From positions 3,596,001 through 3,660,000 of the forward strand of contig AP026073.1 in the NCBI GenBank assembly GCA_024349765.1: a stretch of DNA of 64,000 nucleotides, in the 5' to 3' direction. The stretch comes from Streptomyces nigrescens. GTDB taxonomy: Bacteria; Actinomycetota; Actinomycetes; Streptomycetales; Streptomycetaceae. The notes beneath the pieces were generated by a model. It was not told where the DNA came from and did no database searches. It saw only the letters and a list, made by a program, of their open reading frames with translations. Below are positions 7,059 to 35,152 of the stretch, piece by piece; position 1 is the first letter of the stretch; every line of letters begins with the position of its first letter. A program made the position numbers and the translations under genes.

Positions 7059-7095
7059 TTGCAACGATCGGCGACCGGTGCACACACTGTGTGCA
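7059..7095. promoter_or_regulatory. Candidate operator sites upstream of the HTH_38/MarR regulator
   Basis: TTGCAACGA (7059-7067) also occurs upstream of the paralogous regulator at 59164. A palindrome TGCACACA-C-TGTGTGCA (7079-7095) lies about 30 bases before the start at 7124. Both sit in the 384-base gap between divergent genes, which holds nothing else recognisable. Confidence 0.45.
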
Positions 7096-7123
7096 AGACA
7101 ACCGAATCAGAGGAACCGACCCG

Positions 7124-7867: not shown

Positions 7868-7872
7868 TGGTC

Positions 7873-8202: not shown

Positions 8203-8203
8203 G

Positions 8204-8883: not shown

Positions 8884-8907
8884 CGCGGGTCTCCTCTGAG
8901 CCTTTCC

Positions 8908-8941
8908 GGTACTGCGTAGTACCAAGTACCACTATACGGTA
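8908..8941. promoter_or_regulatory. Promoter/operator of the PadR-DUF1048 operon
   Basis: The inverted repeat GGTACT-GCGT-AGTACC (8908-8923) sits beside a second near-copy AAGTACC and a minus-strand TATAGT (8931-8936) that could be a -10 box. The position fits repression by the PadR protein encoded downstream. No matching -35 box is clear. Confidence 0.5.
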
Positions 8942-9534
8942 TCACCGAGTAGCTCGGCGAGCGGCGAGCGCGGCGCCACGGAAGCGATTCGAATCATCGG
9001 CGCCGCGCTCGGTGCGCAGCACGTGAGGGGACGTCGCGGCCACGGTGAGCCCGTCGGGCCGCTGCGGCTCGTCCGCGGCGCTCGCTGCACGGCCATCACC
9101 AGCGGCATGCGCAGCGGACGGGGGGCGGAGCACGCCGGCTCGTTGTTGCTGCCCCCGGCGCCGCTCGCCCGTGCCCGCGAGGTCGGTGCGGCCGTGTACG
9201 GGCATGCGGCACCGATGGACTGTCTGCTGACCCGTCACGGCGAGGGGGCCAGGCGTCGCCGGCTCACGAGAGCCCGGACCGCGGCCGTGGCAGCCGTCGC
9301 ACTGACTGGTGCGCTGTCACTGTCGGCCGGGGCCCGCCTGGCTCTCCCCAGCTTCCCTGGTGCTGCTCCTGCTCGCCGAGCTCGTGGGCCGGGACCGCTA
9401 TCGCAGTCTCGGTCACGCCCTGCTGGAGGGCAGTTCGCCATTGCTGCTCTGAGCCCGTCCGTCGCGCGTTGAGCGAGGTGCGGACGGATCGGCGGCGGTG
9501 CCCGGGGTCTGCTGGAACACTTCGTGTGGAGCAC
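8942..9534. other. Stretch without a convincing gene
   Basis: About 590 bases with no supported gene. One plus-strand frame near 9340-9452 gives a hydrophobic segment (SLVLLLLAELVGRDRY) that could be a remnant of a membrane-protein end, but nothing upstream continues it. Other open frames look like chance products of GC-rich DNA. Confidence 0.4.
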
Positions 9535-9660
9535 TCACATCGTCTGCGAGCGGGCAGAGTCTGCGAGATCTGCAAGGCGGCGTAGTTCGGCCAGGTGTCC
9601 TGCCAGTGCCTTCCGGCCCGAAGAGGTGAGGGACAGCCACGTCCGCAGGTGGGAGTTCGA
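9535..9660 (-). pseudogene. C-terminal fragment of a winged-helix regulator
   Basis: The minus-strand frame reads HLRTWLSLTSSGRKALAGHL, then AELRRLADLADS and a stop. This is the wing and last helix typical of small winged-helix (MarR/PadR-like) regulators in Streptomyces. The frame loses similarity upstream of about 9660, before any recognition helix, so it is a truncated remnant. The residues before HLRTW are low-complexity and not family-like. Confidence 0.5.
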
Positions 9661-9740
9661 CGTCGCGGGCGCTCCTGCTGGACACCGTCGTCGGCTACCG
9701 TGCGCCGAGATCAACGGCTGGTGCGGTGGAGGAGTAGGGG

Positions 9741-20418: not shown

Positions 20419-21909
20419 CTACGGAACTTCCGGCAGTCCGGGGCCGGTGCAGTTCACGTCCGCCTTCGGAGTCGTGCCGTTGACGAGGTAGGCAGCGGCG
20501 GTGTCGTCCACGCATGCGTTGCCTCGGCTGGCGAACACGCCGTGCGAGTAGTCGTTGTCGAGCGTGACCAGGCGCGAGCCGGGCAGCAGTCGGCGCAGAC
20601 GGTGTGCGCCCTCGATGGGGGTGACGGGGTCGTGCGCGGAGGCCACCAGCAGTACGGGTGGGGCGTCGGGGCTGCCGAGCGGGGTGCGGTGGGTCGGCTT
20701 GTGGTGCCAGTAGGCGCAGGTGGATGCCTCCATGCCGGTCAGGATCGGCTGCGGGTCGAGCCGGCGGGTGCGGCGGATGTCCGCCAGGATCCGGTGGGGT
20801 GCGGGGGTGGGGGAGTCGGCGCACTTGACGAGCCGGTTCGCCGCTTCGTAGTTGCGCGAATCCGGGCTGTCGAAGGCGGTAGCGGGGCGGAGTCCGTCGG
20901 GACGTCCGTCGTGCAGGTAGTCGCGCAGGCCCTCGGCGAGGCCGGCCCAGCGTTCGGTGCGGCCCAGTGCACGGTAGACGGTGCGGTCGAACTCGGCAGG
21001 CCCGAAGCCGTCCACGGGGTGCGCGGTGAGGTGGTGTCGTGCGCGCAGATAGGCCCGGCGTACGGCGTTCGTACTGCCGCCGAGGCCGAAGCGTTCGGCG
21101 TGGGCGGCGGTCCAGGTGAAGAAGGTGTCGCGCTGTCGCAGCAGTGCGTGGCTCTGGATGACGTCGAAGTCGTACCAGTCCCAGGGACCGACCACGCTGT
21201 CGAGCACCATGCGGCCCACACGGTGCGGGAACCGAGCGGCGTACGCGGCGCCGAGGTAGCTGCCGTAGGAGACGCCGAGGAAGCTCGTCCGGCGTTCGCC
21301 GAGGGCGGCGCGGAGGGCGTCCATGTCCCGTGCCGTCTGTTCCGTGGACAGGTGGGGCAGCGTTTCGCCCGCCGCCGTGGCGCAGTCGTCGGCCAGGCTG
21401 CGCAGCGAGGTGAGGTAGTTCTTCTCTGCCGGCGCGCCTTTGGGTACGGGATTCGCGCCCGGGCTGGTGAAGAGGCCGCCCATCGGGCCGCAGTTCACGG
21501 GAGCGCTCTGCCCGACGCCACGAGGGTCGAAGCCGATGACGTCGTAGGCGCGTCGCACGCTCTCCGGGAGCTTGGCCCGCTTCGTGACCGCGTAGGAGAG
21601 CCCTGAGCCGCCCGGTCCGCCCGGATTCACCAGCAGGATGCCGCGCCGCTCGGCGGGGGTGCCCGACGCGCGCACCCGCGAGACGGTCACGTCGATGTGG
21701 GGTCCTCGCGGGTGGTCCCAGTCGAGCGGAACCCGGAGCCGTCCGCACTCGACGTGTTCGGGGGCCGGCGGGTTCGGGAGGGAGCCGGGGCATGCGCCGA
21801 AGCGCAGGGGCAACGTCGGTGTGGCGGCCTGGGTCGGGCCGGCGGGGGTGAGGGTGGCGGCGGTCAGCAATGCGCACAGCGCGGCGGTGCGGCGGAGGGG
21901 ACGGGTCAC
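20419..21909 (-). CDS. Secreted alpha/beta-hydrolase (tripeptidyl-aminopeptidase-like)
   Basis: A 496-residue exported hydrolase. Residues 1-30 are a signal peptide (RPLRRTAALCALLTAATL, then an AxA-type site before TPTLPLRFG). The catalytic domain has LVNPGGPGGSGLSY (oxyanion loop), VIGFDPRGVGQS, and nucleophile Ser in FLGVSYGSYLG. The acid Asp is in ASAHDPVTP and the His in NDYSHGVFA. The C-terminal TAP-like domain places it with the Streptomyces SlpD/tripeptidyl-aminopeptidase group, which cleave short N-terminal peptides. GTG 21909 follows GAAGG. It is divergent from the metallophore-like operon, with the Zur-like box 62 bases upstream, so it may share that control. Confidence 0.85.
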   Translation of the reverse strand: MTRPLRRTAALCALLTAATLTPAGPTQAATPTLPLRFGACPGSLPNPPAPEHVECGRLRVPLDWDHPRGPHIDVTVSRVRASGTPAERRGILLVNPGGPGGSGLSYAVTKRAKLPESVRRAYDVIGFDPRGVGQSAPVNCGPMGGLFTSPGANPVPKGAPAEKNYLTSLRSLADDCATAAGETLPHLSTEQTARDMDALRAALGERRTSFLGVSYGSYLGAAYAARFPHRVGRMVLDSVVGPWDWYDFDVIQSHALLRQRDTFFTWTAAHAERFGLGGSTNAVRRAYLRARHHLTAHPVDGFGPAEFDRTVYRALGRTERWAGLAEGLRDYLHDGRPDGLRPATAFDSPDSRNYEAANRLVKCADSPTPAPHRILADIRRTRRLDPQPILTGMEASTCAYWHHKPTHRTPLGSPDAPPVLLVASAHDPVTPIEGAHRLRRLLPGSRLVTLDNDYSHGVFASRGNACVDDTAAAYLVNGTTPKADVNCTGPGLPEVP

Positions 21910-21970
21910 AGGGCCTTCAAAGGGGTTGGACGGACAAGGGGGCGGCAAAGGGCTGCCCACGAGATGACAA

Positions 21971-21985
21971 TGAAAATGATTATCG
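21971..21985. promoter_or_regulatory. Zur-like box between hydrolase gene and metallophore-like operon
   Basis: TGAAAATGATTATCG matches the Streptomyces Zur palindrome TGAAAATGATTTTCA at 13 of 15 positions, as I recall that consensus. It is strikingly AT-rich for its surroundings and lies 89 bases before the first gene of the operon. The same stretch also partly resembles an enterobacterial Fur site, but streptomycete iron control usually uses a different box. Confidence 0.72.
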
Positions 21986-22073
21986 TTAATGTTCTCGCCA
22001 GGCAACCCGGACCCCTTCCACGGAAGGGCGCTGGGCTGCCCCTTGTCTGAAATCCAAGCCCGGAAGGGGAGTT

Positions 22074-23330
22074 GTGGCTCATCTGTTGGTGGTCGAGAGC
22101 TGGGTCGGAGCGATGAGCCGACTGCTGCCGCGGGCGATACGGGAGGGCGGGCACACCTTCACCTTCCTCACCCGTGACCTGCACCACTACCTGCGCTCCG
22201 CGCCCGAGGGGACGGCGCACCCGCTACTCGGTGCCCGCGACATCATCACCGCCGAGACCAACGACACCGAGGCCCTGCTGTCCGAAGCCGAGCGACTGCA
22301 CGCGATGTGGGGGTTCGACGGGGTGGTCACGTCCTGCGACTACTACCTGCCTACCGTGGCGCGGATCGCCGAGCGGCTCGGTCTGCCGGGCCCCGGGCCG
22401 GAAGCGATGGAGAACGCCTGCCGCAAGGACGCCACCCGCCGCGTCCTCGCCGATGCCGGAGTGCCCGGCCCGCGCTTCGCCGTACACGAGGAGTGGGTCG
22501 ACATCGCGGGCGCTGCCCGGGAGATCGGCTATCCGCTGGTGGTCAAGCCCGTCGACCTGTGCGCCGGGATGTACGTACGGCGCGTGGATGACGAAGCCCA
22601 ACTCGCCGATGTGTGCCGCACGTTGGCGGAATTCCCGGTGAATGCGCGCGGACAGCGGCGCGCTCCCGTCGTCCTGCTCGAAGAGTTGCTGGACGGCCCC
22701 GAGGTGAGCGTCGAGACCGTCTCGTGTGCAGGGACGGTCCACGTGGTCGGCGTGACCGACAAGAGCGTCGGCGGGGCGCCCGCCTTCATCGAGACCGGCC
22801 ATATGTTCCCCGCAGCTCTGACGCCCGCCGATGCCGAGGCCGCCGAGCAGACCGCGCTGCGCGCCCTGAAGGCGCTCGGGCTGGTCGACGGTGTCGTGGC
22901 GCACACCGAGATCAAGCTGACCGCCGCCGGCCCCCGCGTGGTCGAGGTCAACCCGCGTCCCGCCGGGAACCGCATCACCGAACTGATCCGCCACGTCACC
23001 GGCATCGACCTCGCGGCGGCCTCCGTGGACGTCGCGCTGGGCCGCCAACCCCGGTTGAGGCGTACGGACACCGGACTGCGCAGCGCCGCCATCGGATTCC
23101 TGGTGCCACAGACCACCGGCACGCTCGAAGCGCTGGACGGCGGCGCACTGCGAGACGCACCGGACGTGCTGGAGGTGCGGCTCGCCGACCCCGGCAGGGT
23201 GGTGAAGGCGGCGGGCAGTAACAACGAGTACCTCGGGCACGTCATGGCCGGTGACGCCGACGGGCCAGGTGCCCGCGACCGCGTCGAGGCCCTGCTGGCC
23301 GGGCTGCGCGCGGGACTGGTGATCCGATGA
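22074..23330 (+). CDS. ATP-grasp ligase (carboxylate-amine ligase)
   Basis: A 418-residue ATP-grasp enzyme, which would form an amide or peptide bond via an acyl phosphate. Seen are the pre-ATP-grasp strand (MAHLLVVESWVG), the central ATP-grasp fold with YPLVVKPVDLCAG (the phosphate-binding loop), a VLLEELLDGPEVSVET lid, and the metal-binding end VVEVNPRPAGNRI. Length and motifs fit the L-amino-acid ligase group. GTG 22074 follows AAGGGGA. It is the first gene of the Zur-box operon and overlaps the next by ATGA. The ligated substrates are unknown; the context suggests an amino-acid-derived chelator. Confidence 0.86.
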   Translation: MAHLLVVESWVGAMSRLLPRAIREGGHTFTFLTRDLHHYLRSAPEGTAHPLLGARDIITAETNDTEALLSEAERLHAMWGFDGVVTSCDYYLPTVARIAERLGLPGPGPEAMENACRKDATRRVLADAGVPGPRFAVHEEWVDIAGAAREIGYPLVVKPVDLCAGMYVRRVDDEAQLADVCRTLAEFPVNARGQRRAPVVLLEELLDGPEVSVETVSCAGTVHVVGVTDKSVGGAPAFIETGHMFPAALTPADAEAAEQTALRALKALGLVDGVVAHTEIKLTAAGPRVVEVNPRPAGNRITELIRHVTGIDLAAASVDVALGRQPRLRRTDTGLRSAAIGFLVPQTTGTLEALDGGALRDAPDVLEVRLADPGRVVKAAGSNNEYLGHVMAGDADGPGARDRVEALLAGLRAGLVIR

Positions 23331-24205
23331 CCGCCGTCACCGGCGCGGCCGGCACGGTGGCGTACGCGACGTGCCCGACGTACGGCGAGCTGGTGGACCG
23401 CGTTCGCGCGGGCGGACTGGGCCCCGACCCGGCCACGCAACGGATAGCCGTGGCCTTCACCACTCGGCAGGCCGTACGGCATGACGGGCGCGACACCGGC
23501 TATCGCAACGAAGTGCTCAGCCTGCGCCTGGCCGAGGCCGTCGGCTCCTGCGCGGTCGAGCCAGGCACACTGCCCGACAGAGCGCTCGACGACTGTGTGG
23601 GCGCGGAGGTGGCCCGGCTCCTGGAGCATCCGCTGCTGCCGGTGCGGGTGGCCGCCCTGGACGCCTATCTGATGCACGTCACCCCGCACACCCCGGAGAG
23701 CGGGGCGCGTCCCTTCCCGCTGCCCGCCGGGTCGTCGCTGGAGAAGTCCCGGGCACGGGCGGAGGCGGTCGCCGAGCTGATCGACCTGCCGCCGGGGGCC
23801 ACGGTTCTGGTGATCGGAGTCGTCAACTCCCTTCTTGAGGCGCTGCGTGCGCGCGGCCTCCGGTACGTCCCGTGCGACCTCAAGGGCGGCGTCACGGAGT
23901 GGGGCGAGCAGGTCGTCACCGATGCGCTTGCCGAGGCCGGCCGCTGTGATGCGCTGCTCGTCTCCGGCATGACCCTGGGCAACGGCACCTTCGAACCACT
24001 GCGGCGGCACGCGCTGCGGCACGGCAAGCAGCTGGTGATGTTCGCCCAGACCGGCAGCGCCGTGCTGCCCCGTTTCCTCGGCCACGGCGTGAGCGCGGTG
24101 TGCGCGGAGCCGTACCCCTTCTTCTGGCTCGACGGCGGGCCCGGAGCCGTCCACCGCTACCGGGGTCCGTCCGGCAGCTTGTGCCCGGGAGGCGACGACC
24201 GTTGA
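23327..24205 (+). CDS. DUF364/DUF4213-like (putative heavy-metal chelation) Rossmann protein
   Basis: A 292-residue protein. The N-terminal part (residues about 1-150) begins TYGELVDRVRAG with RIAVAFTTRQAVRHDG. The C-terminal part has a Rossmann-like glycine region ATVLVIGVVNSLLEALRARG, then DALLVSGMTLGNGTFEPL and LVMFAQTGSAVLPRFLGHGV. This layout resembles the DUF4213+DUF364 pair, which Pfam describes as putative heavy-metal chelation, with no proven enzyme role. It overlaps the ligase gene by ATGA and the next gene by TTGA, so the three are tightly coupled. It could bind the product's metal, or be a synthase whose substrate is a metal-binding amino acid. Confidence 0.72.
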   Translation: MTAVTGAAGTVAYATCPTYGELVDRVRAGGLGPDPATQRIAVAFTTRQAVRHDGRDTGYRNEVLSLRLAEAVGSCAVEPGTLPDRALDDCVGAEVARLLEHPLLPVRVAALDAYLMHVTPHTPESGARPFPLPAGSSLEKSRARAEAVAELIDLPPGATVLVIGVVNSLLEALRARGLRYVPCDLKGGVTEWGEQVVTDALAEAGRCDALLVSGMTLGNGTFEPLRRHALRHGKQLVMFAQTGSAVLPRFLGHGVSAVCAEPYPFFWLDGGPGAVHRYRGPSGSLCPGGDDR

Positions 24206-25299
24206 CCGCGACCGCTGTCCGTCTCACCGCCCGACCGGAGCTGCTCGCCCTGCTCGGCCGTACACCACTGGTGCGCATCACCGCTGACCTGCCGGGCCCC
24301 CACCCCGGATTCTGGGCCAAGCTCGAAGGGCTCGCCGCCGGCGGCATGAAGGCGCGGGCTGCCGTGTCGATGCTGCTCGGTGCCCGCCGGCGCGGCGAAC
24401 TACGGCCCGGTGCACCGGTGGTGGAGTCCACCTCCGGCACCCTCGGCCTCGGCCTGGCCTTCGCCGGGCAGGCGCTCGGTCACCCCGTCGTGCTCGTCGG
24501 CGACCGGGAACTGGAGCCGTCCATGCGGCAGTTGCTGTGTGCCCACGGCGTCCGCCTGGAACTTGTCGACCGCCCGGCCCCCGAGGGCGGCTGGCAGGCC
24601 GCCCGCCTCGCCCGGCTGCGCGAACTGCTCGCCGTACTGCCCGACGCCTACTGGCCCGACCAGTACAACAACCCCGACAACACCGTGGGTTACGCCGCAC
24701 TGGCCGCCGAACTCACGGACCAGCTCGACCACCTCGACGTCCTGGTGTGCAGCGTCGGCACCGGCGGCCACAGCGCGGGCATCATCGGTCCCCTGCGGCG
24801 GCGCTGGCCCGCCCTGCGGCTCATCGGGGTCGACGCCACCGGCTCCACGATCTTCGGCCAGCCCGCCCGGCCCCGGCTCATGCGCGGCCTCGGCAGCAGC
24901 ATCCACCCACGCAACGTCGCCTACGGCGCCTTCGACGAGGTCCACTGGGTCGGCCCGGCCGAGGCCGTGGACAGCTGCCGGCGGCTTGCCCGGGGCAGCT
25001 TCGTCAGCGGCGGCTGGAGTACCGGCGCGGTCGCCCTCGTCTCGGCCTGGGCCGCCCGCGTCCACCCGGGGGCGGTGGTCGCCACCGTCTTCCCCGACGG
25101 TCCGCACCGCTACCTCGGCACGGTCTACGACGACGACTTCACCGCCGCGCACGGCCTCGACCCGTCCGCCGCGGCCACCCGACCCGTCGAGATACCGCAC
25201 CCCCGTGCGGCCGAGGCGGCCGGGTGGGTCCGCTGCAGCCGCGTCACCGACCCGCTCCGGGCTCCCATATCCCCGCACCCTTCGGAAGAGAACCTGTGA
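24202..25299 (+). CDS. Cysteine-synthase-like PLP enzyme
   Basis: A 365-residue fold-type II PLP enzyme. Lys50 in GGMKARAA replaces the usual SVKDR lysine context and would carry PLP. The substrate loop ESTSGTLG (75-82) aligns with TSGNTG of cysteine synthases, and the phosphate loop is SVGTGGHSAG. Such enzymes do beta-replacement on O-acetyl- or O-phosphoserine; SbnA of staphyloferrin B synthesis, which starts 2,3-diaminopropionate formation, is a relative with a biosynthetic role. The start is taken as TTG 24202, which overlaps the previous stop as TTGA; no ATG or GTG lies near it. Its place between ligase and epimerase suggests it makes the building block. Confidence 0.8.
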   Translation: MTATAVRLTARPELLALLGRTPLVRITADLPGPHPGFWAKLEGLAAGGMKARAAVSMLLGARRRGELRPGAPVVESTSGTLGLGLAFAGQALGHPVVLVGDRELEPSMRQLLCAHGVRLELVDRPAPEGGWQAARLARLRELLAVLPDAYWPDQYNNPDNTVGYAALAAELTDQLDHLDVLVCSVGTGGHSAGIIGPLRRRWPALRLIGVDATGSTIFGQPARPRLMRGLGSSIHPRNVAYGAFDEVHWVGPAEAVDSCRRLARGSFVSGGWSTGAVALVSAWAARVHPGAVVATVFPDGPHRYLGTVYDDDFTAAHGLDPSAAATRPVEIPHPRAAEAAGWVRCSRVTDPLRAPISPHPSEENL

Positions 25300-26351
25300 A
25301 GGTCACCCAGCGCACCGTACGACTCGACCTCGCCGAGCCGCTGCGCATCTCCCGCTCCACCATGGCCGCGCGTGACGCGGTGTGGCTGACCATCGAACAC
25401 GCCGGGGTGCGCGGTCACGGCGAGGCCGTCACCAGCGTCTACTACGGGCTGGATGTCGGCACCCTCGAACGGCTCCTCGCGGCCGTCGCCACGGACCTCC
25501 GCCGCTTCCGCGACCCCGAAAGCGCTCTTGATGCCCTGCGGTCGGGCGAGCCGGTCGGGGAGGGCACCCCGCCGGCCGTGACCGCCGCCGTCGAGGCCGC
25601 GCTCCTCGATCTCGTCGGCAAGCGCGCCGGCAGCCCGGTCCACCGACTCCTCGGGGCCACCGCCGCTCCGGTGGCGGCAACGGCCCGCACCATCGGCATC
25701 ACCTCGCCGGTGCGCGCCGCGGCCGAGGCGCGGTGCCTCACGGCGAGCGGCTTCGAGGTCATCAAGGTCAAGGCGGGAGCGCGCGACCCCGAGGACGACG
25801 TGGAGCGGGTGCGCGTCATCCGGGATGCCGCGCCCCGGGCCCGGTTGCTCCTCGATCCCAACGGCGCCTGGACCACGGCCCAGGCCGAGGCCCTGCTGCC
25901 CCGGTTCGCCGACCTCGGGGTCGAGGCCGTCGAACAGCCCCTCGCACCGGGCGATCCGGAGGCGCTCGGCGCGCTCGCCGCCCGCTCACCGCTCCCGGTC
26001 ATCGCCGACGAGGACGCCGTGAGCCTGGAGGACGCCCGCCGTCTGGCCGGACGCGTGCACGGAGTCAACGTCAAGCTCGCCAAGTGCGGTGGCGTTCACG
26101 CGGCCCTGCGCATCGCCGAGGCGATCGAGGGCAGCGGCACCGCGCTGATGCTCGGCTGCCTGACGGCCAGCAGCCTCGGCCTCGCCCCGGCTGTCCATCT
26201 GGCCGACCGCGCCCGCTGGGCCGACCTCGACGGACACCTGCTGCTCGCACGCGACCCGTGGACCGGGATCGGCGGCACCGACGGCTTCGTACGGGCAAGT
26301 TACCTACCCGGCCTGGGAGTCCGGCGCAACACGGGTGAGGAGACGGCATGA
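25296..26351 (+). CDS. Dipeptide epimerase (enolase superfamily, muconate-lactonizing subgroup)
   Basis: A 351-residue enolase-superfamily protein with all catalytic residues of the L-Ala-D/L-Glu epimerase type. The base pair is Lys159 (in KVKAG) and Lys263 (in KLAKCGG); the metal ligands are Asp187 (LLLDPNGAW), Glu213 (VEQPL) and Asp238 (ADED). These enzymes invert the alpha carbon of a residue in a dipeptide. GTG 25296 overlaps the previous stop as GTGA. In this operon it probably sets the stereochemistry of a ligase-made dipeptide, a role that CntK (a DapF-type racemase) plays on histidine in staphylopine synthesis. Confidence 0.87.
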   Translation: MKVTQRTVRLDLAEPLRISRSTMAARDAVWLTIEHAGVRGHGEAVTSVYYGLDVGTLERLLAAVATDLRRFRDPESALDALRSGEPVGEGTPPAVTAAVEAALLDLVGKRAGSPVHRLLGATAAPVAATARTIGITSPVRAAAEARCLTASGFEVIKVKAGARDPEDDVERVRVIRDAAPRARLLLDPNGAWTTAQAEALLPRFADLGVEAVEQPLAPGDPEALGALAARSPLPVIADEDAVSLEDARRLAGRVHGVNVKLAKCGGVHAALRIAEAIEGSGTALMLGCLTASSLGLAPAVHLADRARWADLDGHLLLARDPWTGIGGTDGFVRASYLPGLGVRRNTGEETA

Positions 26352-27607
26352 AGATCTGGCACGAGATGCGCCGTTTCCCCCTGGCCGTCCGCCTCCTGCT
26401 GGCCAACCAGCTCGGTGTCAACACCGGCTTCTACCTCCTCATCCCCTATCTCGCCACTCACCTCAGTCAGAACCTGGGCATGTCGGCGGCCGTCGTAGGG
26501 ATCGTCCTCGGCGTCCGCAACCTCAGCCAGCAGGGCTTGTTCCTCATCGGCGGCTCCGCCTCCGACCGGCTCGGCGCGCGCGGCGTCATCATCGCCGGCT
26601 GCGCCCTGCGCACCGTCGGGTTCGCACTGTTCGCGCTGGGTGACGGGCTGGCGGTGCTACTTGCCGCTTCCGTGCTCAGCGGGCTGGCCGGCGCCTTGTT
26701 CAACCCTGCCGTGCGCGCCTACCTCGCACAGGAGGCGGGGGAGCGCAAGGCCGAGGCGTTCGCCTTGTTCAACGTCTTCGCCACCACCGGCGCGTTGATC
26801 GGTCCGCTGCTGGGAAGTGCGCTGCTGCTCGTGGACTTCCGTGCGTCCGCGCTCACCGCCGCCGGGATCTTCGCCGTCCTGACCGTCGCGCAGGCCCTGG
26901 TCCTGCCGGCGCGCGAGGTGGAGCCGAGCGAGGGCAGTGTCCTCGCCGACTGGCGCGAGGTCCTCGGCAACCGTGCCTTCCTGGCCTTCGCACTCGCCAT
27001 GGTCGGCATGTTCACCCTGCAGAACCAGCTCTACCTGCTGCTGCCCGATGGAGCCCGGCGGACGACCGGCTGGGACGGCGCGGCGGGCCTGGTCTTCCTC
27101 GTCGGCACCGTCACCAACCTCACCCTGCAACTGCGCATCACTCGGGCTCTCAAAGGGCGTGGGAGCAGGGCGCGTTGGATCGTCGCCGGGCTCGCCTTGA
27201 TGGCGCTGGCCTTCCTGCCGCCGGCCCTGGTGGCGGGCGGAGCCGGCGCCCCGGACGGCGCCGCCGACGCGGTGCTGCGCACGCTCCCCGTCCTGCTCGG
27301 TGCCCTGCTGCTCTACCTGGGCGTCATGATCGCCCAGCCGTTCGTGCTGGAGCTCATTCCCGGATTCGGCCGCGCGGAACTGACCGGCACCTACTACGGG
27401 ATCTTCTACGTGGTCTCCGGCGTCGCCGCCGCGGCCGGCAACACCGCCGTCGGCTGGGCCATGGACACCGGGGCACGCGGCGCCGCCTGGCTGCCCTGGG
27501 CCTGCTGCGTCCTGTTCGGTCTCGTCTCCGCAGGCGGCGTGGCCTGGCTGCACCGGCGCAACGCGCTTCCGACGACGCCGAAGCCCGCCGTGACGGTGGC
27601 GGCCTGA
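26348..27607 (+). CDS. MFS transporter, likely exporter
   Basis: A 419-residue major facilitator protein with about 12 membrane segments. TM1 reads LLLANQLGVNTGFYLLIPYL, and the loop 2-3 motif is QGLFLIGGSASDRLGAR, the MFS motif A. The two halves are joined by a hydrophilic loop near residue 195 (EVEPSEGSVLADWREVL). It resembles drug:H+ antiporters. ATG 26348 overlaps the epimerase stop as ATGA. Placed between biosynthetic enzymes and an ABC importer, export of the operon's product is the simplest role. Confidence 0.85.
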   Translation: MKIWHEMRRFPLAVRLLLANQLGVNTGFYLLIPYLATHLSQNLGMSAAVVGIVLGVRNLSQQGLFLIGGSASDRLGARGVIIAGCALRTVGFALFALGDGLAVLLAASVLSGLAGALFNPAVRAYLAQEAGERKAEAFALFNVFATTGALIGPLLGSALLLVDFRASALTAAGIFAVLTVAQALVLPAREVEPSEGSVLADWREVLGNRAFLAFALAMVGMFTLQNQLYLLLPDGARRTTGWDGAAGLVFLVGTVTNLTLQLRITRALKGRGSRARWIVAGLALMALAFLPPALVAGGAGAPDGAADAVLRTLPVLLGALLLYLGVMIAQPFVLELIPGFGRAELTGTYYGIFYVVSGVAAAAGNTAVGWAMDTGARGAAWLPWACCVLFGLVSAGGVAWLHRRNALPTTPKPAVTVAA

Positions 27608-27620
27608 GGAAGGAGACGAC

Positions 27621-28433
27621 ATGACTCACACCGCCACTGACGACTTGCGCAACCTGCTCACCGACAACCCCGAGCTGTATGAGGCCCGTTTTCCCGACAC
27701 CCACCGGCTGGCCGGACGCTGGACGGAGGACTGCCTGCGGCGGTACGGCGCGGGCCCGCGGGTGCTGGACATGGGCTGTGGCACCGGCCGTGACGCCGCC
27801 CACCTGCACGCCGTCGGCCGCAAGGTGACCGGCGCCGACCTCTCCGAGGCGATGCTCGCCCACGCCCGCGCCCACCACCCCGGGCCCGCGTACGTCCGCG
27901 CCGACCTGCACGGGTTCGACCTGGGCCACGGCGCGTTCGACGCGGTCGTCTGCCTGGACAGCTCCCTGCTGTACTGCCACACCAATGCCCAGCTCGACGG
28001 CTTTCTGGCCTCCTGCCGCCGCGCGCTGTCCCCGGGCGGTCTGCTCGTCGCGGAGATGCGTAACGGCGCCTACTTCCTGGGCCGTACCGACCTGCTCGAC
28101 ACCCCCACCGTCCACGAATTCGCCTGGCAGGGATCGGTCCATCGGTCCACCACCACGCTCACGGTGGACCGCACCGCCCAACTCCTGCGCCGAAGCCGTG
28201 TATGGACCGCGGACGACGGATCACCGCCCGTCGAGCAGCGCTCCGCATGGCGGTTGCTGTTCCCGCAGGAACTCCGTCGTCTCCTGGCGGCACACGGTTT
28301 CGAGGTTCTCGACCTGCACGACGGTCCGGGCCCGCGCACCGAGCCGCCTTGGCGAGAAGGCATGCCCCCGGGCGACGCGACGGACGCCGACCGACTGCAC
28401 GTCGTCGCCCGGCTCACCGAGCCGGCACCGTGA
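27621..28433 (+). CDS. Class I SAM-dependent methyltransferase
   Basis: A 270-residue Rossmann-fold methyltransferase. Motif I is VLDMGCGTGRDAAHLHAVG (residues about 48-66), followed by VTGADLSEAML (motif II acidic residue for the ribose) and FDAVVCLDSSLLY (motif IV). The C-terminal half is a beta-rich region (HRSTTTLTVDRTAQLLRRS) as in small-molecule N- or O-methyltransferases. Ribosome-binding site GAAGGAGA is strong. Within the operon it would tailor the product. Confidence 0.85.
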   Translation: MTHTATDDLRNLLTDNPELYEARFPDTHRLAGRWTEDCLRRYGAGPRVLDMGCGTGRDAAHLHAVGRKVTGADLSEAMLAHARAHHPGPAYVRADLHGFDLGHGAFDAVVCLDSSLLYCHTNAQLDGFLASCRRALSPGGLLVAEMRNGAYFLGRTDLLDTPTVHEFAWQGSVHRSTTTLTVDRTAQLLRRSRVWTADDGSPPVEQRSAWRLLFPQELRRLLAAHGFEVLDLHDGPGPRTEPPWREGMPPGDATDADRLHVVARLTEPAP

Positions 28434-28458
28434 CCCATCCATACCACGAGGAACCCGC

Positions 28459-30048
28459 ATGACCGAAGAATCCGACACCCACCTCCCCTTCCCGGGCCTG
28501 CGCCGCCGTGGCTTCCTCGCCGCCACGGGCGCCGCCTCGCTCGGCGCCCTCGCGCTCAGCGGTTGCGGCGGCCCCGGCTCCGACGACGGCAAGGGCACGG
28601 GCGACGGCCGGCCCCGGCGGGGCGGGCGGCTGCGCGCCGCCTTCGCCGGGGGCGGTGCGAGCGAGACCCTCGACCCCCACCTGGCCAACCTCTTCGCCGA
28701 CGTCGCCCGCGCCAAGGCGCTCTTCGACAAACTCGCCGACTACGGCGCCGACCTGTCCGCGCAACCCCGCCTCGCCGAGAAGTGGCAGGCGAACAAGACC
28801 CTGGACCGCTGGCAGGTCACCCTGCGCAAGGCCACCTTCCACAACGGCAAGCCGGTCACCGCCCAGGACGTCCTGTACAGCTACCGCCGCATCGCCGACC
28901 CGACGAAGGGGTTCCGCGCCAAGGCGTCCCTGGAACCCATCGACCTCGACGCGAGCCACGCCACCGGCAAGCGGAGTATCGAGTTCGTCCTCAAGCGGCC
29001 CACCGCCGAATTCCCCAACATCCTTGCCGCGTTCGGCGCGTACATCGTTCCCGAGAACGCGACCGCCTTCGACGAGAAGCCGATCGGCTCCGGCCCCTTC
29101 CGCTGTGTCTCCTTCGCCCCCGGCCGCTCGGCCGTCTTCCGCCGCTACGACGACTACTGGGAGGGCGCCCCACACCTCGACGAGATCGAATTCGTCGTCG
29201 CCAACGAGGAGTCCGCACGCGTCAACGCACTCCTCGGCGGCCAGGTCGAGTACGCCCACGAACTCGACCCCACCACCGCCCGCGCGCACGAGGACAACGG
29301 GCAGATCGAGATCGTTCGGCTGCGCAACAGCGCCATGCAGGGCTTCGCGATGAAGACCGATCGTGCTCCGTTCGACGACAAGCGGGTACGCCAGGCGTTC
29401 TTCCTCATCGCCGACCGCAAGGAGCTCGTCGACGGCGCCCTGTCCGGCGCCGGCGAGATCGGCAACGACCTGTTCGGCAAGGGCTACGAGTACTACGCCG
29501 ACGGCCTCCCCCAGCGCGAACAGGACCTGGGACGCGCCCGCGCCCTGCTGAAGCAGGCCGGCGCCGAAAGGCTCAAGGTCACCCTCGACACCTCGGCCGT
29601 CGCCGCCGGATTCACCGAGGCCGCCACCATCTTCCGCGACCAGGCCGCCAAAGCAGGCGTCACCATCGACGTCAAGACAGGCAGCAAGGACACGTACTGG
29701 AGCGACATCCTCGACTCCGGCACCCTGTGCTGCTACCGCTCCGGAGCCATGCCCATCGAGGCCCATATCTCCCAACGGCTGCTCACCGGCTCCACCACCA
29801 ACGCCACCAAGTGGCACCACAAGGACTTCGACGCCCTCTACCAGCAGGCGCAGTCCACCCCCGACACCAAGGACCGGGCGGCCGTCTACGCGCGCATGCA
29901 GCGCCGCCTGTACACCGACGGCGGCTTCCTGATCTGGGGCTTCGCCGACTGGATCCTGGGAACCGCACGCAAGGTGAAGGGGGTTGACCGGAAGGCGCCC
30001 GCCAACACGCTCGACTGGGCCCGGTTCGACAAGGTGTGGCTGGCGTGA
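28459..30048 (+). CDS. ABC transporter substrate-binding lipoprotein (SBP_bac_5, peptide/nickel type)
   Basis: A 529-residue extracytoplasmic binding protein. The signal has twin arginines (RRRGFLAA, 15-22) and a lipobox ending LALSGC with Cys36 as lipid site, so it is a Tat-type lipoprotein. The mature part has the family-5 pattern (TLDPHLANLFADVARAK, then TAQDVLYSYRRIADP and KRVRQAFFLIADRKELVDG) shared by OppA, DppA, NikA and CntA. The last two bind metals or metallophores. It starts 26 bases after the methyltransferase gene, with the permeases directly following, so it should capture the operon's product or its metal complex. Confidence 0.9.
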   Translation: MTEESDTHLPFPGLRRRGFLAATGAASLGALALSGCGGPGSDDGKGTGDGRPRRGGRLRAAFAGGGASETLDPHLANLFADVARAKALFDKLADYGADLSAQPRLAEKWQANKTLDRWQVTLRKATFHNGKPVTAQDVLYSYRRIADPTKGFRAKASLEPIDLDASHATGKRSIEFVLKRPTAEFPNILAAFGAYIVPENATAFDEKPIGSGPFRCVSFAPGRSAVFRRYDDYWEGAPHLDEIEFVVANEESARVNALLGGQVEYAHELDPTTARAHEDNGQIEIVRLRNSAMQGFAMKTDRAPFDDKRVRQAFFLIADRKELVDGALSGAGEIGNDLFGKGYEYYADGLPQREQDLGRARALLKQAGAERLKVTLDTSAVAAGFTEAATIFRDQAAKAGVTIDVKTGSKDTYWSDILDSGTLCCYRSGAMPIEAHISQRLLTGSTTNATKWHHKDFDALYQQAQSTPDTKDRAAVYARMQRRLYTDGGFLIWGFADWILGTARKVKGVDRKAPANTLDWARFDKVWLA

Positions 30049-30998
30049 CGGGGCTGCGCTCCTTCGTCGCCCGGCGGCTGCTCCTCGGCGTCGCACAGAC
30101 CGTGGCCGTGGTGCTGCTGGTCTTCGCGCTCACCGAGGCGCTGCCGGGCGACGCCGCCGTCGCCCTCGCCGGCGACCAGCCCGACCCCGCCCGTATCGCC
30201 GCGATCCGCGAGGCCATGCACCTGGACCGGCCGGCATACGAGCGGTTGGCCGAGTGGGCGGCGGGCCTGGTGCACGGCGACTTCGGCACCTCCGTGACCT
30301 CCGGACGTCCCGTCAGCCAGTACCTCGCCGAAGGCTTCGGCCCCACCCTGCTGCTGGCCGCCCTCACCGTGGCACTGCTCGTCCCGGCCGGCTTCGGCCT
30401 GGGCGTACTGGCCGCCCGCCACGAAGGGCGACTCGCCGACCGACTGATCAGCTCCGTGACGCTCACGGTCTACGCGGTCCCCGAATTCGCCCTCGGAATC
30501 TTGCTGGTGACCGTCTTCGCCCTCCACCTGGGCTGGCTGCCACCCACCGCCGTCGGCTACGGCACGGACCTGCTCGCCCATCCCGCAGCGCTGCTCCTGC
30601 CCGTCCTCGTCCTGCTCTCCCGACCGGTGTGCTCACTGGCCCGCCTGGTTCGTGCAGGCATGGTCGACGCCCTGGCCGCGCCCTACGCGGTGCACGCCCG
30701 CCGCTACGGCATCGGCGGCGCCCGCGTCCGCTACGCCCATGCCCTGCCCAACGCCCTCGCACCGGCCGTCCAGCAGCTCGCCCGCACCATCGACTGGCTG
30801 CTGTGCGGTGTCATCGTCGTGGAGGCCCTCTTCGTGATCCCCGGACTCGGGACCGTCCTGCTCAACGCCGTCGCCGAACGCGACGTACCGGTGGTGCAGG
30901 GCCTCGCCGTGGTGTTCGGCGTCCTGACCGTCGTGCTCAACCTCGGTGCCGACCTCGTCGCCCACCGACTCGCACCACGGGCGGGGGTGGCCGCGTGA
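30045..30998 (+). CDS. ABC transporter permease (DppB/NikB type)
   Basis: A 317-residue inner-membrane permease with about six segments. The N-terminal LGVAQTVAVVLLVFALTEAL, followed by LPGDAA, is typical of DppB proteins; the cytoplasmic coupling loop reads ARRYGIGGARVRYAHALPNALAP (the EAA motif). GTG 30045 overlaps the binding-protein stop as GTGA. It forms the heterodimeric channel with the next gene's product. Confidence 0.9.
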   Translation: MTGLRSFVARRLLLGVAQTVAVVLLVFALTEALPGDAAVALAGDQPDPARIAAIREAMHLDRPAYERLAEWAAGLVHGDFGTSVTSGRPVSQYLAEGFGPTLLLAALTVALLVPAGFGLGVLAARHEGRLADRLISSVTLTVYAVPEFALGILLVTVFALHLGWLPPTAVGYGTDLLAHPAALLLPVLVLLSRPVCSLARLVRAGMVDALAAPYAVHARRYGIGGARVRYAHALPNALAPAVQQLARTIDWLLCGVIVVEALFVIPGLGTVLLNAVAERDVPVVQGLAVVFGVLTVVLNLGADLVAHRLAPRAGVAA

Positions 30999-31861
30999 CC
31001 CACAAGCCCTCCACGCTCCTATCCGACACCTACGCCGTCGTCCAGCCACGCCGCGCCGGCCGCTACGCCCTCGGCCTCGCCGTCATCTCCGTACCCCTCG
31101 TCCTTGCCGTCCTGGGACCGGTGTTCGCGGGCGCCCCGGGAGCGCGGGCCGCCTCCTTCACCCCCGGCGACGGACACTGGTTCGGCACCGACTTCGTGGG
31201 CCGTGACGTGTGGCGTCAGGTCCTGCTCGGCGGCCGGCCGGTGGCGCTGACTGCGCTCGCCGCGACGGCTCTGGCCTACCTCGTGGCGCTGCCCGTCGGA
31301 CTCATCGGAGCGCTCACCCACCGCCGCTGGCTGGAGGAGACGCTACTGCGACCGCTGGACGTGCTGCTGGCGGTGCCGTCCCTGCTGCTGATCCTGCTGG
31401 TGGCCTCCGTGCTCACACCGGACGCGGTCGGGCTGGCCCTGCTCGTCGCGCTGGTCAACGTCCCGGATGCGGCGCGGATCGTGCGCGCGGCCGCCGCCGA
31501 CGCCGCGGCGCGTCCCGCAGTCGAGGCGTTGCGCATGCAGGGCGAGACGTGGTGGCGCACGGCTGTCGGATACGTCGGCCGCTCGATACTGCGCACCCTG
31601 GCCGCGGACGCCGGCACCCGGCTCACCGGCGTGCTGTACCTCGTGGCCACGGCCGCGTTCCTCGGTGTCGGCGTCGCGCCGGATGCCGCCGACTGGGCGG
31701 TGATGGTGGACCGCAACCGCACCGGACTGTTCGTGCAGCCCTGGGCCGTGGTGGTGCCCGCGCTGCTGATCGTCGCGCTGACCACGGGCAGCAACCTGCT
31801 CTTCGACGCGGCACTCCACAAGCCCGGTCGGCGCCGGGGAGAGAGGAAACCACGGCTGTGA
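30995..31861 (+). CDS. ABC transporter permease (DppC/NikC type)
   Basis: A 288-residue permease partner. It has HWFGTDFVGRDVWRQVLLGG, the conserved N-terminal DppC motif, about five to six membrane segments, and a coupling loop in ALRMQGETWWRTAVGYV. GTG 30995 overlaps the previous stop as GTGA. With the 30045 product it forms the import pore for a small peptide-like or metal-complexed ligand. Confidence 0.9.
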   Translation: MTHKPSTLLSDTYAVVQPRRAGRYALGLAVISVPLVLAVLGPVFAGAPGARAASFTPGDGHWFGTDFVGRDVWRQVLLGGRPVALTALAATALAYLVALPVGLIGALTHRRWLEETLLRPLDVLLAVPSLLLILLVASVLTPDAVGLALLVALVNVPDAARIVRAAAADAAARPAVEALRMQGETWWRTAVGYVGRSILRTLAADAGTRLTGVLYLVATAAFLGVGVAPDAADWAVMVDRNRTGLFVQPWAVVVPALLIVALTTGSNLLFDAALHKPGRRRGERKPRL

Positions 31862-33459
31862 CCGAACGGAACGACACGACCGCACCGACGGGCGCGTGCA
31901 CCGATGCCGGGCCGGCCCCGGTCGCGGAGATCCGTGACCTGCGGGTGGAGATCGATGGTCGGGCGATCGTGGACGGCGTGCACCTGCGGGCTCTGCCCGG
32001 CAAGGTGACGGCGCTCGTCGGAGCCTCCGGCAGCGGCAAGACCACCACGGGCCTCGCCCTGCTCGGCGCGTACCCGTCGGGTGCCCGGGTCACCGGCGAC
32101 GTCCGCGTGGCGGCGGACGGCCCGGCCGGCTACGTGCCCCAGCATCCGGCGTCGGTCCTCAACCCCGCCCGCCGGGTCTCGGCGCTGCTGAACGACATCG
32201 CCCGCACCCAGGTGCGCGACCTACCTCGCCACGAGCGCCGGGCGGCCGCCCGCAAACGCATCCTGCAAGCGCTGTCCGACGCCCAGCTCCCGCACGCCGA
32301 AGCCCTGTTGCGGCGCTATCCACACCAACTGTCCGGGGGCCAGCAGCAGCGCGTCGTCCTCGCCCAGGCGCTGCTGCTGGGGGCCCGCGTCATCGTCGCC
32401 GACGAACCCACCACCGGCCAGGACGCGTTGACCAAGAGCCGCATCGTCGACCAGCTGGCAGCGCTGGCGGCCCGCGGCATCGCGGTCGTACTGCTCAGCC
32501 ACGACCTCGATGTGGTGCATGCACTCGCCGACGAGGTCCTCGTCATGCGGGCGGGCCGGGTCGTGGAGTCGGGCCCGGTCCAGCGGTTGTGGCTCGCACC
32601 GCGTCACGAGTGGACCCGCCAACTGCTCGATACCCGACCGTCGTCCACCGGGCACGAGCCCCCGTCCGACACCGGACGGCCCGTCCTGCGCGTACGCCAC
32701 CTCACCGCCCGCCACCGGGATGGTGCCCACGGCCCCACCGTGGTGCTACGCACCCCAGAACTCGCCCTGCACCCTGGTGAGTCGCTCGCTGTCGTCGGCC
32801 GCTCGGGCAGCGGAAAGACCACCCTCGCCCGCTGCCTGGCCGGCCTCCACCGCGACCACGACGGCCAGGTCCACCTCGACGGCACCCCACTGCCGCGCAG
32901 CGTACGGCAGCGCAGTCGCGCGCAGTTGGCGGCTGTGCAGTACGTCTTCCAGGACGCACGGGCCGCCTTCGACGAGCACCGCCCCGTCCTCGACCAGGTC
33001 GCCCGCACGGCGGTACGCCTGCGTGGACTCGACCACGAGTCGGCCGTTCAAGAGGCCCTGGCCACACTGACCGGCCTTGGCCTCCCGCCTGAGGCGACCC
33101 ACCGCCTTCCCTCGGAGCTGTCCGGCGGCGAACTCCAGCGGGCGGCTCTGGCCCGCGCGCTGTTGGCCCGGCCCCGGGTCCTGATCTGCGACGAGATCAC
33201 CTCTGGCCTCGACACCGTCACGCGCCGCGGCATCCTGGACGCCCTCACGGATCTGCTGCGCGACCGTGCGGACGTGTCCCTCATGCTGATCACCCACGAC
33301 CTGGAGTCCGCGCGCCTGGCCCACCGCATCGCCGTGCTGGAGGCGGGCGAGCTGGTCGAACAGGGCCCGGCCCACCGCATACTGACCGAGCCGCGGCACC
33401 CGTTCACGGTCTCGCTCATGGAGACGACGGCACGTCTTGAGGCGAAGACCGGGGCCTGA
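31858..33459 (+). CDS. ABC transporter ATPase, two nucleotide-binding domains fused (DppD-DppF type)
   Basis: A 533-residue fusion of two ATPases. Domain 1 (about 20-245) has Walker A GASGSGKTT, signature LSGGQQQRVVLAQAL and Walker B VIVADEPTTGQD. Domain 2 (about 275-530) has GRSGSGKTT, LSGGELQRAALARAL and VLICDEITSGLD. Both sites look complete. In most Dpp/Nik systems these are separate genes. GTG 31858 overlaps the previous stop as GTGA. It is the last gene of the operon; a GC-rich palindrome follows at 33482-33497. Confidence 0.9.
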   Translation: MTERNDTTAPTGACTDAGPAPVAEIRDLRVEIDGRAIVDGVHLRALPGKVTALVGASGSGKTTTGLALLGAYPSGARVTGDVRVAADGPAGYVPQHPASVLNPARRVSALLNDIARTQVRDLPRHERRAAARKRILQALSDAQLPHAEALLRRYPHQLSGGQQQRVVLAQALLLGARVIVADEPTTGQDALTKSRIVDQLAALAARGIAVVLLSHDLDVVHALADEVLVMRAGRVVESGPVQRLWLAPRHEWTRQLLDTRPSSTGHEPPSDTGRPVLRVRHLTARHRDGAHGPTVVLRTPELALHPGESLAVVGRSGSGKTTLARCLAGLHRDHDGQVHLDGTPLPRSVRQRSRAQLAAVQYVFQDARAAFDEHRPVLDQVARTAVRLRGLDHESAVQEALATLTGLGLPPEATHRLPSELSGGELQRAALARALLARPRVLICDEITSGLDTVTRRGILDALTDLLRDRADVSLMLITHDLESARLAHRIAVLEAGELVEQGPAHRILTEPRHPFTVSLMETTARLEAKTGA

Positions 33460-33737: not shown

Positions 33738-34913
33738 TCAAGCCTGCGGCACCAGGTCGGGGCCGAGGTGCTCGTGCTCGCAGGCGTCGTCGATTCCGTA
33801 CGTGTCCCATGCGGGGAACGGGTCGTCGCAGGGCTGCTCCCCGTCGGCCAGGAGGCAGTCGGCAAGAGCGGTGTGCAGTGCCTCAGCGCGCAACTCCGTC
33901 CCGATGAAGACCAGTTCCTGTCCCTGGCTGTCGCAGACGGCACGGGCACCGGACGGCTCGAAGCGGGCGACGGCGCCCGCCTGTGACCACAACCCGGTGA
34001 CGTTCGGGCGGCTGGCGAGCCAGAAGAAGCCTTTCGAGCGCAGGACGTTGCCGTAGGCGCCGCTGTCGAGGCCCTCGGTGACGAAGGTCCACAGGCGGCC
34101 GGGATGGAACGGCGTATCGGCGCGGAAGACCGTGCTGGAGATGCCGTATTCCTCGGTCTCCGGGACGTGGTCGCCGTTGAGTTCCCGTACCCAGCCGGGG
34201 GCCTGCTGGGCCCGTTCGAGGTCGAAGAGCCCGGTGCCGAGGATGTCGCAGGGGTTCACCTGTCCGTGCCGGGCGGGCACGATCCGGGCGGCTGGATTGA
34301 GACGGGCGAGTGCGGCCTGAAGGTGATCGGCGCTGTCTGCATCGACGAGGTCGGTCTTGTTGAGGACGATGACGTCGGCGAATTCGATCTGGTCCATCAG
34401 CAGGTCGCTGACGGTGCGCTCATCGTCTTCGTACTGGTCCAGTCCCCGCTCGACCAGCCCGTCGCCTCCGGTCAGCTCCGGCAGGAAGTTGGCGGCGTCG
34501 ACAACGGTGACCATGGTGTCGAGCCTGGCGAGGTCACCCAGGGTCGCTCCGTCGTCGCGGGGGAAGGCGAAGGTGGCTGCGACGGGCATCGGTTCCGAGA
34601 TGCCGCTGGACTCGATGAGGAGGTAGTCGAAGCGGCCTTCGTGGGCCAGCCTGTCGACCTCTTCGAGCAGATCGTCGCGCAGGGTGCAGCAGATGCAGCC
34701 GTTGGTCATCTCGACCAGGCGTTCCTCGGTGCGGGAGAGGGCGGCTTCACCCCCGCGCACCAGGGTCGCGTCGATGTTGATCTCGCTCATGTCGTTCACG
34801 ATGACCGCGACGCGCAGGCCCTCCCGGTTGCTCAGGACGTGACGGAGCAGGGTCGTCTTGCCAGCGCCGAGGAAGCCCGACAGGACGGTGACGGGCAGTC
34901 GGTTGTGCGTCAT
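33738..34913 (-). CDS. CobW/COG0523-family GTP-binding zinc-homeostasis protein
   Basis: A 391-residue COG0523 GTPase. Walker A is GFLGAGKTT (13-21); the hallmark CxCC metal site is in [12 protein letters not shown]; Walker B-like IESSGISEP and the NKTD base-recognition motif follow. The C-terminal CobW_C domain has GFFWLAS. The tail ends [20 protein letters not shown], with possible metal ligands. Zur-regulated members such as ZagA or ZigA deliver zinc under starvation. It follows the zinc-independent L32 gene by nine bases and should share its Zur-like promoter. Confidence 0.87.
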
Positions 34914-35137: not shown

Positions 35138-35152
35138 TGAAAACGACTGTCA
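35138..35152. promoter_or_regulatory. Zur-like box upstream of rpmF-cobW
   Basis: TGAAAACGACTGTCA matches the Zur palindrome TGAAAATGATTTTCA at 12 of 15 positions and has matching TGA..TCA ends. It lies 45 bases upstream of the L32 start. The gene content downstream (C-minus L32, CobW) is classic Zur-regulated content, which supports the reading. Confidence 0.75.

Follow-up and report, generated by a model that had tools for sequence, protein, structure and literature searches.

What could be the purpose of ten closely spaced genes for biosynthesis and transport that lie behind a predicted binding box of the zinc regulator Zur? The question is raised by a locus of Streptomyces nigrescens (GenBank assembly GCA_024349765.1; 9.33 Mb in two contigs), studied within a 64-kb stretch of DNA (contig AP026073.1, positions 3,596,001 to 3,660,000 of the forward strand) which, at its full length, is referred to as the window and to which coordinates refer unless a genome position is given. 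The operon, with its genes here named A to J, is most readily understood as an undescribed class of zincophore system that would make, secrete and recapture a small zinc chelator without involvement of a nonribosomal peptide synthetase (NRPS). The probability of this reading, in which we infer both the product and the metal, is estimated at about 0.8.

The operon, its Zur box and their conservation

Ten intact open reading frames, all on the plus strand, span positions 22074-33459, with start codons of our choice. Four-base overlaps are found at seven of the nine junctions (A/B, B/C, C/D, D/E, G/H, H/I and I/J), while the coordinates leave gaps of 13 bases between E and F and of 25 bases between F and G. 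The original prediction of ten plus-strand genes with mostly overlapping junctions is thus borne out, and Pfam equally returned the gene set it had listed, a ligase, a protein with a domain of unknown function (DUF364), a pyridoxal phosphate (PLP)-dependent beta-replacement enzyme, an epimerase, a major facilitator superfamily (MFS) transporter, a methyltransferase and an SBP_bac_5 importer.

The Zur box TGAAAATGATTATCG (21971-21985) fills the spacer between a -35-like hexamer on the plus strand, ATGACA (21964-21969; 5/6 match to TTGACA), and, 17 bp downstream, a -10-like hexamer on the same strand, TAATGT (21987-21992; TANNNT). It scores 13/15, as had been predicted, against the consensus TGAAAATSATTTTCA, which is our merge of two published motifs, and fits with one mismatch the motif derived from chromatin immunoprecipitation (ChIP) of Streptomyces coelicolor Zur, tGaNNatSatNNtCa, as given in the accessible part of PMC5472717. 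Scanning the genome with TGATAATCATTTTCA at up to three mismatches gave 15 strand-hits, against 6 for a reversed control pattern; with at most two mismatches only two sites were found genome-wide, the operon box (one mismatch) and genome position 1,044,549 (two mismatches), the latter where a znuA-like gene starts, with znuC-, znuB- and zur-like genes as neighbours. A 12/15 box is also found ahead of rpmB2- and rpsN2-like ribosomal genes of the same genome, these gene names, as those of the znu and zur genes, being our reading of the translations. Tested for membership in the Zur regulon, the operon has a box in its promoter that matches the genome's own znuA box.

Conservation was followed in two overlapping sets of loci (for example L155 = G049, L199 = G063, L202 = G061, L181 = G001). 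The first comprises the best 80 DUF364 protein matches with species names, all from Streptomyces; the second comprises 25 fetched high-identity loci from a DUF364 search of 150 relatives, 46 of which carry such a gene, 26 at 69-100% identity (own genome included) and the other 20 near 40% identity or weaker, with one genome having both kinds. Gene order across genomes, suggested beforehand as a check, is retained: A to J occur in order in 73 of the 80 loci and in 22 of the 25 (L062 with split matches). The seven exceptions in the larger set are six loci cut by contig ends and L202, which retains A-D only; in the smaller set L044 holds A-D, L053 holds A-E and L057 breaks in G. The importer-less operons of L044/L202 and L053 could be decaying copies. 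The overlaps from A to E are near-universal (B/C in 76/76, for example), indicating tight coupling.

The box is conserved together with the genes. All 79 Streptomyces loci that have upstream DNA reach 11/15 or more no farther than 260 bp from A, and 72 of them reach 12/15 or more, with the best box of L147 and L188 located farther out than the usual place; 1.6% of random null windows, some of which overlap true boxes, reach 11/15. Equally, all 25 fetched high-identity loci have a box of at least 10/15, where two control segments per locus score 6-9, and 13 further loci of this first type, drawn from the family and phylum surveys given below and with other genera included, all reach 11/15 or better within 300 bp, six of them staying below 12. 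The original prediction had named as an outcome speaking against it that homologues would never be linked to Zur boxes; these 79/79, 25/25 and 13 further loci show the opposite. In 53 loci without operon-type promoters, among them L141 and L142, whose DNA comes from downstream of two operons, a single box of 12/15 or more was found in 365,134 bases. When 26 loci were aligned with the box as anchor, 31 columns around it averaged 1.43 bits each and the flanking columns 0.35; in 24 of the 26, TANNNT occupies a fixed place just after the box, 17 bp from the -35 element, which matches TTGACA at 5/6 positions in 17 loci, at 3-4/6 in eight and not at all in one. This conservation of the box across loci is stronger evidence for Zur control than the motif scan. 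Because of the promoter anatomy and of what is known about Zur of S. coelicolor, zinc-loaded Zur would, under zinc-replete conditions, occupy the box in the -35/-10 spacer, blocking RNA polymerase, and would leave it when zinc is scarce.

Enzymes, exporter and importer of the predicted route

The candidate entry enzyme is C (24202-25299; TTG start; Pfam PALP), a PLP-dependent beta-replacement enzyme that resembles SbnA but belongs to a clade of its own. It reaches 237 bits against the SbnA model TIGR03945, below the cut-off of 349.95, and matches the SbnA structure 5d87 with E 3.9e-41; the presumed PLP lysine K50 is kept in 78/78 sequences, and the motif SGTLG takes the place of SGNLG in SbnA and SGN in the EDHA (ethylenediaminesuccinic acid hydroxyarginine) enzyme. 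In a tree with long branches and unsure deep joins, C groups with the PLP enzyme of a two-gene PLP plus MFS unit, apart from SbnA, the EDHA enzyme and the second-type enzymes described below. From its likeness to SbnA, C might couple an activated serine (O-phospho- or O-acetylserine) to the amino group of a second amino acid, so that an N-(2-amino-2-carboxyethyl)-amino acid would form as an aminopolycarboxylate core. The two-gene unit itself lies in Streptomyces scabiei at about 10.01 Mb (L236, approximately 6500-9041), shows 58% identity to C in its PLP enzyme and 44% identity to E in its MFS exporter, lacks a strong Zur box and is possibly a one-enzyme aminopolycarboxylate pathway like that of aspergillomarasmine A (AMA) synthase. 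L228-L231 also carry such a PLP gene, the comparison there covering the PLP gene only.

B (23327-24205) is the DUF364 protein (PF04016), which passes the Pfam gathering cut-off with 27.5 against 23 bits. Its AlphaFold model (mean predicted local distance difference test, pLDDT, 84.2; predicted template modelling score, pTM, 0.83) has two domains, one enolase-N-like and one Rossmann-like. The top Foldseek matches of the model, 3l5o (TM 0.57/0.67) and 3npg, are both solved DUF364 structures, while a phmmer search of the sequence against solved structures found nothing. Two residues are invariant in 30 sequences comprising B and its second-type relatives, N219 and D184, the latter directly following the second Rossmann strand of the model. 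The paper on the DUF364 structure from 2010, in the part available, proposed condensation or hydrolysis in the biosynthesis of metal chelators resembling siderophores, an idea based in part on genome context. The aminopolycarboxylate core would be the substrate of B, in what is probably a cofactor-dependent step or a second one that forms a bond.

A (22074-23330; Pfam ATP-grasp_4 with a C-terminal LAL_C2 domain) is closest, as far as solved structures go, to L-amino acid ligases (PDB 3vot, BL00235, E 2.4e-32) and matches NCBIfam PRK02186 in its ATP-grasp half with 203 bits, the cut-off being 625; E279, E291 and N293 are kept in 79/79 sequences, and the alanine-anticapsin ligase BacD is among the relatives recovered from solved structures. 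By its family, A is predicted to form an amide or peptide bond and might so couple the core to another amino acid. The idea that A marks an ATP-grasp/argininosuccinate-lyase cluster was rejected; relatives do have such clusters, which by eye resemble NRPS-linked and other pathways. In L135-L138, argininosuccinate-lyase-like, SbnA-like, GHMP-kinase-like and ATP-grasp or NRPS genes were seen by eye in varied sets, perhaps representing an aspartate-releasing route to a diamino acid.

The resulting dipeptide might have a stereocentre inverted by D (25296-26351), an enolase-superfamily protein with both MR_MLE domains (N and C) that resembles dipeptide epimerases. Its NCBIfam matches to DgcA (224 bits) and to L-Ala-D/L-Glu epimerase (150 bits) are both below the cut-off, yet K157, K159, D187, E213, D238, K260, K263, D310 and D312 are kept in 76-78 of 78 sequences, and in alignment with solved relatives the dipeptide-epimerase KxK, the Asp/Glu/Asp metal ligands, the second Lys and the DxD are all present; the catalytic and metal-binding roles are those which we take these residues to have. 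The idea of a dipeptide-like product, part of the original prediction, retains its plausibility with a ligase-like A and the epimerase residues of D. F (27621-28433; Pfam methyltransferase), an S-adenosylmethionine-dependent enzyme whose nearest solved structures include N-methyltransferases, glycine N-methyltransferase among them, would, as judged from its family, methylate the dipeptide product.

Transport would be shared between E (26348-27607; Pfam MFS_1), an MdtH/NorA-like MFS exporter of the product, and an ATP-binding cassette (ABC) importer of its zinc complex. The importer consists of the solute-binding lipoprotein G (28459-30048; Pfam SBP_bac_5), with a twin-arginine-like motif and a lipobox, the permeases H (30045-30998; Opp2B/NikB-like) and I (30995-31861; Opp2C/NikC-like), both with Pfam BPD_transp_1, and J (31858-33459), a fused double ATPase with two Pfam ABC_tran stretches. 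The best NCBIfam match of G is Opp5A/NikA with 153 bits (cut-off 600), and the best three of J are NikD, CntF and CntD. Models of CntA, CntC, CntD and CntF match the importer below their cut-offs, NikA-type models scoring higher for G. The layout with biosynthesis, MFS export and SBP_bac_5 import thus continues to suggest a chelator operon, as first proposed.

A second family of DUF364 and PLP enzyme clusters

The finding is broader than first noted, as the operon is one member of a wider set of clusters with DUF364 and a PLP enzyme; the original prediction mentioned neither a second Zur-boxed family of this kind nor the Zur target next to the operon that is described at the end of this section. 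Fifteen of the 22 weaker matches of B were fetched, six near 40% identity were typed by identity alone, and G053 (31%, a second match) was left uncounted. L078, a 29% DUF364 match without a B match at E 1e-6, was excluded from the type counts, so that the second family is represented by 14 fetched loci, L064-L077, with a DUF364 protein about 37-41% identical (over A1). An MFS exporter is found in 14/14, a PLP enzyme of a different clade, with 27-32% identity to C, in 13/14 (L064 is cut), and a GHMP kinase in 11/14 (not found in L064, L067 and L068). Importers are of the FecB/FecCD type in 11/14 and of the SBP_bac_5 type, 46-50% identical to G-J, in L067; none was found in L068, nor in L077, which meets a contig end. 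Homologues of A or F were not detected in this family at E 1e-8, and D only as a distant 27% match in L077. L068 has an extra HemK-like methyltransferase and a weak dioxygenase match (7139-7906 and 8844-9800), and methyltransferase-like genes were also seen by eye in L071 and L077; such extra genes suggest a family of related products.

Zur boxes, between divergent genes or before the first gene, accompany the second family as well: 13/14 loci have one of at least 11/15 and ten one of at least 12/15, the fourteenth being cut by a contig end, and a second sample of second-type loci shows at least 12/15 in five of six, the sixth cut (L064 and L256 end ahead of the promoter). The two types rarely share a genome. 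Among 91 genomes of the genus, the first type occurs in 26 and the second in 19 (some of these typed by identity alone); a single genome combines them, where 5.4 would be expected (hypergeometric P 0.008 for at most one, ignoring phylogeny). Judged by gene content, DUF364 and the PLP enzyme are the apparent shared core and the importer appears exchangeable between cluster types. It is reasonably probable, though with less assurance than the function proposed for the operon itself, that DUF364 and a PLP beta-replacement enzyme form the core of an undescribed NRPS-free zincophore family with at least two cluster types, switched by Zur, with interchangeable importers and a bond-forming DUF364, mostly among relatives at the level of the Streptomycetaceae. 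Of 297 genomes sampled from the host family, 81 (5/17 genera) had a DUF364 homologue of this kind, as had 7 of 396 genomes phylum-wide (2/236 genera). A DUF364 gene 24% identical, on an AT-rich contig of another family (L266, G374) and near ATP-grasp-like and decarboxylase-like genes seen by eye, perhaps marks a further cluster type; the 13/15 box there carries little weight in so distant and AT-rich a locus.

If the proposal is true, it describes a common route of zinc acquisition by soil actinomycetes, and gives a first concrete function, with a testable reaction, to DUF364, a domain of unknown function since the 2010 structure. Equally, it would provide a rule for genome mining, DUF364 plus PALP plus Zur box, and natural zinc chelators of a broad class including ethylenediaminedisuccinic acid (EDDS) and AMA, the latter an inhibitor of metallo-beta-lactamases by removal of zinc according to the accessible text of PMC8319579.

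On both sides of the operon further genes stand near Zur boxes. A minus-strand alpha/beta-hydrolase with a TAP-like domain (20419-21909; PF00561 and PF08386) is divergent from the operon, shares the intergenic region of its Zur box, is present in 33/80 of the Streptomyces loci and could be co-regulated; it is an accessory at most. Downstream and convergent with the operon lies a pair on the minus strand, a cysteine-free paralogue of ribosomal protein L32 (34923-35093; rpmF2-like, named by eye from its translation) and, downstream of it, a ZigA/CobW-type GTPase (33738-34913; Pfam cobW; NCBIfam ZigA 521 bits, cut-off 600), preceded by a second Zur box, TGAAAACGACTGTCA (35138-35152; 12/15). The ZigA/CobW-type gene is a Zur-regulon neighbour outside the operon; in L188, L205 and L259, but not in most loci, a CobW homologue is also close to the operon.

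Alternative explanations and known systems

Could the operon instead be a Zur-run relative of the EDDS/EDHA pathway that yields a compound of known class? The systems of S. scabiei and Amycolatopsis japonicum, EDHA and [S,S]-EDDS, resemble it as NRPS-free chelator pathways that use an SbnA-like PLP enzyme and, as seen in the S. scabiei cluster, an importer of the SBP_bac_5 type, and EDDS is controlled by Zur in Amycolatopsis, as stated in the accessible parts of PMC6103462 and PMC9252823. The comparison, made against the EDHA-like cluster of S. scabiei, found G-J 36-40% identical to the importer of that cluster. In S. scabiei 87.22, however, the operon (about 9.09 Mb) and the 11-kb EDHA-like cluster (about 0.59-0.60 Mb) are separate loci approximately 8.5 Mb apart, so that identity of the two was rejected. 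From its position, its size of 11 kb and its gene content, the cluster at 0.60 Mb is inferred to be SCAB_5231-5311, the 11-kb EDHA locus that antiSMASH left undetected according to the part of PMC8914351 consulted. It encodes a TauD dioxygenase, an ornithine-cyclodeaminase-type protein, a PLP decarboxylase, a PLP enzyme, a MATE exporter and the SBP_bac_5 importer; decarboxylase, ornithine-cyclodeaminase-type protein, dioxygenase and MATE are absent from the operon, which has DUF364, the ATP-grasp ligase, the dipeptide epimerase and the methyltransferase instead. The PLP enzyme belongs to a clade different from that of C, though on a long branch, and the divergent promoter region shows 15/19 and 14/19 matches to an iron-type box and no strong Zur box, the best match (11/15) lying inside a gene. 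An EDDS/EDHA relative is therefore unlikely.

Quite unlikely, too, is a true metallophore for nickel, cobalt or copper, run by Zur as low zinc coincides with a low supply of these metals. Staphylopine-type chelators carry several metals, and the highest-scoring models for the subunits of the importer are of nickel type (NikA, Opp2B/NikB, Opp2C/NikC and NikD), all below cut-off; but Zur senses zinc, and the neighbouring genes look zinc-sparing or zinc-chaperoning. ATP-grasp dipeptide ligases and epimerases are also found in antibiotic pathways, and with BacD related to A and E resembling multidrug exporters the product might be an antibiotic, antimetabolite or signal induced by zinc starvation, the importer serving recycling or self-protection. 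This is very unlikely in view of the dedicated ABC importer inside the operon, the presence of Zur boxes in sister clusters whose importers belong to two unrelated families, and the rare co-occurrence of the two cluster types (1/91 genomes), as expected of redundant zinc carriers. A zinc-responsive system for nutrient peptides or amino acids, with a feeding importer and peptide-modifying enzymes, is highly improbable, since ligase, methyltransferase and MFS exporter misfit catabolism and a Zur box occurs in all 25, 79 and 13 loci with upstream DNA (sets overlapping), even though SBP_bac_5 proteins are often peptide importers, several of which are among the nearest structures of G, and D resembles DgcA and L-Ala-D/L-Glu epimerases, which are catabolic enzymes.

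Several observations weigh against the zincophore proposal nevertheless. Every NCBIfam match of A-J is under its curated cut-off and B has none, so that the names of the genes hold at family level only; the substrates given for A, B, C, D and F are conjectural. The nearest solved structures of G are a mixture of peptide-, opine- and nickel-type binding proteins and do not discriminate between peptide and metal-chelate import. At one mismatch the ChIP motif is unspecific (it occurs 109 times per strand, the control 26 times), and a degenerate Zur motif as sole evidence was dropped because of too many chance matches. The boxes sit on homologous promoters and the loci are thus not independent. 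Biosynthesis genes occur without the importer of the operon in L202/L044, apparently one genome, and L053, which ends with E, has a weak 10/15 box. In the second family L067 and L068 showed no kinase and L068 no importer; moreover, as the PLP enzymes of the two families are far apart, DUF364 might have been paired with them on two separate occasions, and the routes might not be the same. Finally, SbnB is found above cut-off elsewhere in 19 of the 26 operon genomes, the own genome included. SbnB as a required partner was rejected with seven of the 26 lacking a match above cut-off (one of these, G001, only 79% complete) and two lacking any match at E 1e-20; canonical SbnB seems dispensable for the operon.

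The original prediction, whose author knew of no characterised pathway with this enzyme set, agrees with the literature searched, where, most subscription papers being out of reach, no paper was found that mentions DUF364 together with metallophores, or SbnA together with ATP-grasp and metallophores, and none that describes the wider set of clusters with DUF364 and a PLP enzyme; the accessible text of a survey of peptide metallophores (eLife 2026, PMC12971057) mentions neither DUF364 nor Zur. A Zur-run metallophore system with export and import is a known kind of system, and the combination of enzymes is new to us.

Staphylopine and pseudopaline (Cnt) systems have the layout predicted for the operon, with biosynthesis of a small secreted chelator, MFS export and SBP_bac_5 import, the importer of the operon being perhaps of the NikA/Cnt kind. 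The analogy to staphylopine drawn beforehand is weaker than it was put, holding for the layout and not for the enzymes: among the Pfam and NCBIfam matches listed for the ten proteins there was no nicotianamine-synthase-like protein or opine dehydrogenase (CntL/CntM-type), and the staphylopine racemase CntK is a DapF-type histidine racemase, a superfamily different from the enolase-type dipeptide epimerases that D resembles. Pseudopaline is reported to be Zur-controlled (PMC6103462, as far as accessible). Coelibactin of S. coelicolor is, from the sources in part available, a predicted zincophore controlled by Zur and made by an NRPS, which the operon does not have. With staphyloferrin B (SbnA/SbnB) the operon shares the SbnA relative C, while an SbnB partner is missing from it by Pfam and NCBIfam. 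The fungal AMA synthase, likened here by its described reaction, is a PLP enzyme and serves as a one-enzyme precedent for a zinc-chelating aminopolycarboxylate. This single synthase suffices to make the zinc chelator from O-phosphoserine and aspartate, according to the portion of PMC8319579 available. The nearest enzyme chemistry for the operon is the SbnA/EDHA type, a PLP-dependent beta replacement joining two amino acids via a C-N bond.

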